A stretch of DNA of 32,427 nt, taken from the NCBI GenBank assembly GCA_016214605.1, contig JACROD010000023.1, forward strand, positions 1 to 32,427, read 5' to 3'. Positions within the stretch are counted from its first letter, which is position 1. The number at the start of each line of letters is the position of its first letter. The translations under genes were made by a program, and so were the position numbers. The stretch is from Candidatus Kaiserbacteria bacterium. Lineage in GTDB: Bacteria; Patescibacteriota; Minisyncoccia; Phycocordibacterales; UBA2100. This document shows, piece by piece, positions 4,213-32,272 of this stretch. Under the pieces are notes generated by a model. The model was not told the DNA's origin, did not search any database, and worked only from the letters and a program-made list of their open reading frames with translations.

Positions 4213-4323
4213 ACGAGTGTAAAATTAACCGCTAAAAACTCATAGTACTCTTCAGTACATAAACATAAGATGAATAGTGACTCTCTTATGGTATGATCGC
4301 GGCAGAAAATAGGAGAAAACAAC

Positions 4324-4413
4324 ATGAAAGCAAGTATCGTGATACCGGCGCACAACGAAGCCGGGTGCCTACGCTCAACCCTTGAGGCGGTCCGTCTTTT
4401 TTCCTTGATATAG
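4324..4413 (+). pseudogene. N-terminal fragment of a family-2 glycosyltransferase (or a short leader ORF)
   Basis: MKASIVIPAHNEAGCLRSTLEAVRLFSLI*. 'SIVIPAHNEAGCLRSTLEAV' is the GT2 N-terminal signature. It has an SD (aggag). Confidence 0.6.
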
Positions 4414-4439
4414 TATAGTCGCGGCAGAACAGAGAGTAC

Positions 4440-6642: not shown

Positions 6643-7110
6643 ATGAACATGAACCCGGTAGTCCATTTTGAAATGCCTTATGAGGATCGTGCGCGCATGG
6701 CCGACTTTTATACCAAGACCTTCGGCTGGAAGGCCCAAATGATGGGGCCCGAAATGGGCGAATACGCCGTCGTGCATACTGGCGAGACCAATTTTTCTTA
6801 GCGGTAAACCGCTTTAGAAAAATGGCCATGCCCTTGTGGTAAGACGGATGAGAATCAAATGCTCAAAAAGCCGGGGATGATCAACGGCGGCCTCTTCAAG
6901 AAGACCCCCGACAATCAGCATCCCTCGATCGTCATCGCGGTCGAGGATATCCGCGCATCGATCCAAAAGGTCAAAGACGCGGGCGGCAAGATCATCGACA
7001 TGGAGACACCCGGAGAGCCGATGGAGATCCCCGGCATCGGGCTCTATATCGGATTTATCGACACCGAGGGCAATCGGGTCTCTATGCTCCAGCCGACGGC
7101 GATGATGTAG
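6643..7110 (+). pseudogene. VOC (glyoxalase-like) family gene interrupted by a 57-bp insertion
   Basis: N-half MNMNPVVHFEMPYEDRARMADFYTKTFGWKAQMMGPEMGEYAVVHTGET; stop TAG at 6799-6801. C-half from 6844: TDENQMLKKPGMINGGLFKKTPDNQHPSIVIAVEDIRASIQKVKDAGGKIIDMETPGEPMEIPGIGLYIGFIDTEGNRVSMLQP, same frame. Confidence 0.85.
6784..6840. repeat. 57-bp hairpin repeat, copy 1 (inside the VOC gene)
   Basis: GAGACCAATTTTTCTTAGCGGTAAACCGCTTTAGAAAAATGGCCATGCCCTTGTGGT; matches 31882-31938 with 2 mismatches. Confidence 0.9.
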
Positions 7111-18665: not shown

Positions 18666-18771
18666 ACAGCGAACGTGTCTGTATAAAAAGTTCCGCGCAG
18701 GGCGGCGGCCCGAGCGAAGCAAATTTTCAGCAGAAAATTATGTGTACTTTTTAGATAGACACGTTCGCTGT
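18666..18771. repeat. 106-bp element with 26-bp terminal inverted repeats (MITE-like or long stem-loop)
   Basis: ACAGCGAACGTGTCTgTaTAAAAAGT (18666-18691) versus reverse complement of 18746-18771, 24/26 match; internal AATTTTC agca GAAAATT hairpin. Confidence 0.75.
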
Positions 18772-31881: not shown

Positions 31882-31938
31882 GAGACCAATTTTTCTTAGC
31901 AGTAAGCCGCTTTAGAAAAATGGCCATGCCCTTGTGGT
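31882..31938. repeat. 57-bp hairpin repeat, copy 2 (intergenic, upstream of dnaJ)
   Basis: GAGACCAATTTTTCTTAGCAGTAAGCCGCTTTAGAAAAATGGCCATGCCCTTGTGGT. Confidence 0.9.
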
Positions 31939-32029: not shown

Positions 32030-32272
32030 ATGACCGATGTGTCACTCGAAGAACAAATCCTATCAAAACTTACTCTCAGTGGGAGTATGTCTGCAGGGGA
32101 TCTCGTTGATGAGATTATTGTCGATCTCTGTGGTTCACGCGACTTTCGGGAATTTCGAAAAGCTGAAAAACAACATTCCAGCAAAATACGACGAGAAATT
32201 CGGCGTCTTATGGATTCCGATTGCATTCAACTGGGGCAGGGTATGAAATTGGAGAGAGTAGAAATTTCCTAA
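32030..32272 (+). CDS. Hypothetical protein, 80 aa, possibly winged-helix-like
   Basis: Strong SD AGGAGG before ATG; MTDVSLEEQILSKLTLSGSMSAGDLVDEIIVDLCGSRDFREF. Confidence 0.65.
   Translation: MTDVSLEEQILSKLTLSGSMSAGDLVDEIIVDLCGSRDFREFRKAEKQHSSKIRREIRRLMDSDCIQLGQGMKLERVEIS

Follow-up and report, generated by a model that had tools for sequence, protein, structure and literature searches.

A previously undescribed family of small REP-like hairpin elements in Kaiserbacteria and related Paceibacteria

Introduction

HUH Y1 enzymes recognize a folded DNA strand, and a guide tetranucleotide located 5' of the hairpin foot picks the cut sites; IS200/IS605 and REP substrates carry a subterminal imperfect hairpin with the tag at its 5' foot and show no target duplication (PMC6006769, PMC8266576). 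GTAG REPs and REPINs, which are mobilized by RAYT (TnpA-REP, an enzyme that cleaves the folded strand), are extragenic imperfect or perfect hairpins of 20 to 65 nt that are repeated in one genome, bear the tag GT[AG]G, and flank RAYT genes (PMC8266576, PMC6006769). The CGTC-tagged REPs, including dRS3 and the Rickettsia elements RPE-4 and RPE-6, are short palindromes in which a 4-nt tag at one end is left unpaired; most are intergenic, with some located in genes and some lodged in larger palindromes, and they have no dedicated transposase though Y1 genes are present (Di Nocera et al. 2013; PMC3733652). What moves transposase-less REPs is a question already posed for the CGTC REPs.

The element described here was identified in a 32,427-nucleotide stretch of Candidatus Kaiserbacteria DNA (the window) and resembles the CGTC REPs in all of the traits listed above. 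However, it has the tag GNGA and a tail of ~16 nt (GAAGTRCYCTTGTGGT) instead of the tag CGTC, TGTC, or CCTC and a CCA tail, its bipartite stem is longer and contains an internal loop, no HH dimers were noted, and it occurs in a different phylum. With the GTAG REPs it shares size, an imperfect hairpin repeated in one genome and within the 20- to 65-nt range, a tag at the 5' foot, extragenic location, and genomes that contain Y1 genes, but GT[AG]G is absent (the first three bases over 88 copies are GCG in 58, GAG in 8, GTG in 8, and TTG in 6), no inverted pairs were noted, and RAYT genes are not flanked (36 Y1 loci, 14 genomes). PATEs and MITEs derived from IS200/IS605 are likewise noncoding, with a subterminal imperfect hairpin and no target duplication. 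PATEs, however, have both LE and RE hairpins, whereas the element has one hairpin and no conserved target tetranucleotide in its left flank, and no parent IS with its ends was found in the inspected Y1 loci. MITEs of the DDE type have terminal inverted repeats and target duplications, whereas here there is no duplication and just a predicted ACCA/TGGT pairing of the ends. Compared by description, Rickettsia RPE-1 also inserts in frame into conserved protein genes that stay open, as the element does in prmC, but RPE-1 is 105 to 146 bp long with terminal inverted repeats (PMC2229807).

Because of these differences in GT[AG]G tag, transposase flanking, number of hairpins, and CGTC-type tag, tail, and stem, we file the element in no known family; its nearest described kin are REPs that carry a tag, above all those of the CGTC type, which lack a dedicated transposase. 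The REP/PATE architecture proposed in a first-pass annotation of the window is retained as the best mechanistic analogy, but membership in these families is not demonstrated.

Structure of the element

The window contains two 57-bp copies on the same strand (forward), at positions 6784 to 6840 and 31882 to 31938, that are identical at 55 of 57 positions, in agreement with the first-pass annotation. When up to 3 mismatches were allowed, the 36-base repeat core matched the window at these two copies only, with 0.00 occurrences expected in shuffled sequence. Copy 1, a whole unit reading GAGACC...GTGGT, lies inside a gene of the VOC/glyoxalase family. Its unpaired 5' tag GAGA (6784 to 6787) is located directly 5' of the hairpin foot, which is the position of the REP/IS200 guide. 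The imperfect hairpin that follows (6788 to 6825) has outer arms at 6788 to 6798 and 6816 to 6825, inner arms at 6800 to 6804 and 6809 to 6813, a loop at 6805 to 6808, and a 1x2 internal loop (T/TT), and the unit ends with the conserved single-stranded 3' tail CCATGCCCTTGTGGT (6826 to 6840; family consensus, GAAGTRCYCTTGTGGT). Copy 2 is in the region upstream of dnaJ (minus strand) that separates this gene from an ORF at 32030, and its hairpin is at 31886 to 31923. Both copies contain the bulged hairpin noted earlier, and the copy 1 57-mer is predicted to fold as single-stranded DNA at -13 kcal/mol (z = -4.7). The palindrome ATGGCCAT, also noted earlier, is confined to one subfamily, and most copies have GGAAGT.

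Across the family, the unit consists of a 4-nt unpaired tag (GNGA; GCGA in most copies), a bulged hairpin, and a conserved tail of ~16 nt ending in GTGGT, and most copies are 52 to 59 bp long, with a concentration of lengths at 55 to 59 bp. The consensus reads GNGACCAA, stem 1, CTT, stem 2, loop (often GTAC), stem 2', TTAG, stem 1', GAAGTRCYCTTGTGGT. Among 75 distinct copies, 96.9% of the pair cells in the stem are standard and 13 of the 15 pairs have changed on both sides, counts that lean towards structure because the alignment was fitted to a covariance model. The covariation score was 0.337, versus 0.072 for shuffled and at most 0.044 for slid alignments. Replaced stems can also be seen by eye, e.g., TTTTGTTTAGCCG...CGGCTTAGCAAAA in the host and AGAAAATA...TATTTTCT in locus L186. 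These patterns indicate that the stem is maintained by compensatory change. The 5' ACCA is predicted to be able to pair with the 3' TGGT, and these bases hardly vary across copies.

A long, gene-bearing autonomous version was looked for in 52 genomes. All 32 exact tail matches were within units of short length, whereas a control search with the pattern reversed returned 0 matches, so no such version was seen.

Distribution of the family

The host genome (1.09 Mb, 34 contigs, 97% complete) contains six copies at 94 to 100% identity, as found by DNA search, and at least three diverged copies of the same layout. Five near-identical 57-bp host copies differ pairwise at 1 to 4 of the 57 positions, a small divergence such as might be left after a recent burst. 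With a covariance model, 31 of 97 genomes were positive (the host included), with 1 to 17 copies each. A second covariance model, built from 80 copies and run with stricter filters on 387 class-level genomes, detected the element in 17 genomes of 13 genera. A pattern scan of species genomes found it in Candidatus Kaiserbacteria, Nomurabacteria, Lloydbacteria, and other Parcubacteria/Paceibacterota and also in one contig binned as Omnitrophica, which may be misbinned. Altogether, ~90 element copies were collected, many of them at nonhomologous places in the host and its relatives.

When the open literature was searched by text, no account of short palindromic mobile elements from Patescibacteria came up, and we regard this REP-like hairpin element of Paceibacteria (Kaiserbacteria and relatives) as a new family. 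A viral, phage, or plasmid origin was considered and rejected: the phage and plasmid collections gave no element match, and the tail matches in IMG/VR, which lacked the hairpin, appear to be fortuitous.

A sister class, GAGATTTTCTT...TTAGAAAATCCAAGTGTGGT, which lacks the GNGACC start, was observed in L125 (2054 to 2254; G015:C27), L010, L122, and L123. In L125, three 69-bp (23-codon) tandem copies are located, apparently in frame, in a dnaQ-like gene on the reverse strand, and in L123 one copy appears to be nested in another.

Insertion sites

At 69 nonredundant insertion sites, the base following the element (+1) is G in 55 cases and the next one (+2) is C in 38; upstream, position -2 is G in 38 and position -1 is G in just 4 (binomial P values, 1e-19 to 7e-6). 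The site actually preferred by the element is GH^GC, frequently within a loop formed by another palindrome, with the exact cut position uncertain by one base because the G at +1 is also the first base of the element. The enrichment of G at +1 and C at +2 does not amount to a strict tetranucleotide, and the left flank has no conserved tetranucleotide. When the flanks were joined, a stem of at least 7 bp surrounded the junction at 9 of the 69 sites, versus 1.9 expected from nearby positions (P, ~4e-4). Two copies in genome G035 are located in the loop of CGAAATGAAAAC...GTTTTCATTTCG, a palindrome which behaves as the REP of a RAYT, as it flanks the RAYT gene of locus L131 in G033. At least 31 of 41 copies are outside ORFs of 90 or more amino acids, and some of the remaining copies are in ORFs that are over-long, ahead of the position where translation likely starts.

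Two recurrent sequences were observed beside copies. (i) A dispersed host repeat, CAAGGAGCTACGGCACCGTGGTGCAGAAT...ATTCTGCC, is the target of two copies (L002 and L006) and borders a third (L004). (ii) In L099, L089, L077, L117, and L072, the element comes after GTCGGGGAAAC...GTTTCCCCGTGGAGGAAGGATTGGGAAAACCGNGG as part of a larger structure that recurs; this structure is partly located between tRNA genes, is common to several genomes, and has no Rfam match.

For the identification of empty sites, the flanks of each copy were joined and searched against the collected loci with elements masked. At ~20 sites, an empty relative aligned across the junction, mostly without gaps, once exactly GNGACC...GTGGT had been removed. 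The empty versions include homologous genes (the VOC gene among them), the second 5S rRNA gene of the L074 locus, and many paralogous palindromic repeats. No duplicated base string was found in these ~20 comparisons. Since the empty versions align after exact removal of the unit, insertion is precise and occurs without target duplication, which disagrees with the 4-bp AGAC duplication considered in the first-pass annotation. No strain pair differing by the insertion alone was found. Taken from these sequence comparisons, mobility is well supported, and the earlier description of a dispersed, miniature, noncoding hairpin element that inserts holds for the family.

The proposed mobilizing enzyme

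The reading that we favor, as somewhat the more probable one, is that these are small nonautonomous REP-like palindromic elements that would move in trans as folded single-stranded DNA by means of an HUH-type enzyme. By analogy, GNGA, which occupies the position of a guide tetranucleotide, might serve in HUH-like recognition. The tag and hairpin would be recognized by a Y1/RAYT-like enzyme acting in trans, which would cut the element at both ends, and the cut strand would then be joined into single-stranded or hairpin target DNA. The insertions themselves are mostly intergenic, with some inside genes, and immediately precede a G (GH^GC); their targets include the loops of REP-like palindromes flanking an unrelated RAYT gene.

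Y1 genes were found in 46 of 52 genus genomes, and the host has six, IS200-like and RAYT types among them. It is less likely that the element is a genuine REP/REPtron or an IS200/IS605-derived PATE whose cognate Y1 goes unrecognized, being distant from the hairpins or lost from the assemblies. Such an origin fits the abundance of Y1/RAYT genes as well as the tag position, the hairpin, and the absence of target duplication. However, at none of the 36 Y1 loci inspected in 14 genomes did the hairpin flank the Y1 gene, and a transposase with matching hairpins, suggested earlier as a check, was accordingly not found at these loci. Many of the loci bear their own, different, perfect palindromes (GGAAGGTCAGACCTTCC, GCGTAAGTCGGACTTACGC, and others); these genomes commonly contain Y1 genes that belong to other REP families. 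The sole strong element match near the Y1 loci is ~1 kb from a RAYT gene that has its own different REPs. The GNGA tag and the head-to-tail orientation of tandem copies also differ from what is expected of GTAG REPs. The result at the 36 Y1 loci also speaks against the favored reading, as do three other observations. The number of Y1 genes correlates only weakly with element copy number (Spearman coefficient, 0.25; P = 0.08), and 13 genomes with at least four Y1 genes contain zero copies. IS200/IS605 elements prefer the lagging-strand template, and the orientation of the element relative to local GC skew, a rough proxy on draft contigs, showed no bias (22 of 41). The left flank, as noted above, has no conserved tetranucleotide.

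A bolder and less probable reading, which we put forward tentatively, is a Paceibacteria lineage of elements that would insert as folded single-stranded DNA into palindrome loops, including those of foreign REPs, without duplication and sometimes with in-frame extension of a protein, and whose enzyme would be unrelated to, or much diverged from, the known REP and IS200 transposases.

The host, with 1.1 Mb, has at least four REP systems: RAYT genes with their own palindromes GGTGCCAGGCACC, GGAAGGTCAGACCTTCC, GCGTAAGTCGGACTTACGC, and TGCGAGAATCAGACCTTCGCA coexist in L015, L017, L018, and L019.

A site-specific recombinase or another non-HUH enzyme acting on folded DNA, similar to the integron attC or IS110/Piv systems, is an unlikely mobilizer, although precise, duplication-free insertion, a recognition site that is folded, palindromic targets, and the exact head-to-tail tandem copies in L095 and L124 (joined as GTGGT, then GCGACC) would all suit it. 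In many copies the left and right ends do not have the same overlap bases (GA and GC, respectively), unlike a shared recombination core, and the R-box (GTTRRRY) of attC-like sites was not seen. IS110-type DEDD transposases were rejected as candidates: there was no match in the highest-copy-number relatives, G007 and G015, and the cutoff was reached in just 3 of 52 genomes.

Interrupted genes and the improbable readings of an inherited or passively copied repeat

The VOC gene interrupted by copy 1 has its 5' part at 6643 to 6783 and its 3' part, in the same frame, at 6841 to 7110 (forward strand); the left half matches Pfam Ble-like_N and Glyoxalase. The insertion keeps the frame and adds two stops (...GETNFS-stop-R-stop-TALEKWPCPCGKTDENQ...). 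Removal of exactly the 57-bp unit gives a sequence that aligns with the empty VOC homologue L156 of G028, and the gene is uninterrupted at this position in four relatives (G028, G005, G007, and G023), which bears out the earlier proposal that copy 1 is an insertion and not an ancestral spacer. Copy 2 is missing from the dnaJ neighborhood in 29 relatives.

The VOC site alone leaves the insertion phase ambiguous (GGC^AAGAC or GAGAC^GGAT), and one VOC homologue likewise reads GAGAC at the insertion point. This ambiguity misled the first reading of the window, in which GAGAC was native VOC sequence and, in one of two schemes considered, served as a fixed target, with AAGAC as a cleavage sequence at the right end. 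GAGAC and AAGAC do precede and follow the window copies as reported, but the other empty sites assign G[ACT]GAC to the 5' end of the element itself, AAGAC is not conserved, and the two motifs are not common to the flanks of additional copies.

In L074 (802 to 857; G010:C71), a copy splits a 5S rRNA gene that has an intact counterpart ~200 bp away. In two other genomes, prmC (L163, 6938 to 7861, and L180, 7090 to 7974) contains in-frame open inserts, two in L163 and one in L180, that encode ATNFSCPYSDLEKWKYSCG or close to it; a search of the genus found no close prmC homologue for an empty-site comparison.

These loci also bear on whether the repeat, rather than being mobile, might function as a structured RNA or a regulatory motif that has been inherited or has duplicated locally. 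Strong covariation, conserved unpaired positions, a mostly intergenic location, and arrays that in some cases lie near tRNA genes would agree with such a role. We nevertheless consider it improbable, since it is contradicted by the empty VOC and dnaJ sites; in addition, the VOC and 5S rRNA genes are interrupted, copies are in frame within prmC, and the element has no common gene context and no match to a known RNA family in Rfam. Least probable of all is that the copies have been carried along within larger repeats, which would themselves have spread through recombination or gene conversion. Four G015 copies (L081 to L084) whose flanks have repeat sequence in common agree with this reading, as do the arrays of GGGAAAAC...GTTTCCC that recur in several genomes, and it likely holds for a minority outside the host. 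Most host copies, however, have unrelated flanks, and the reading is at odds with the majority of the near-identical ones. The outer repeats also occur in empty form, so they must have received the element separately.

Now that ~90 copies are available, along with their exact boundaries, their site preference, and a model for searches, the question of what moves transposase-less REPs becomes testable. The family also shows that elements of this kind can break genes and extend proteins in frame where genomes are very small.

Two further repeats were observed in the window. A 26-nt inverted repeat (18666 to 18691 and 18746 to 18771; 92% complementary, 54 nt apart) is located at the start of a peptidyl-prolyl isomerase-like ORF, and two 26-nt direct repeats (4287 to 4312 and 4409 to 4434) are 81% identical and 122 bp apart.
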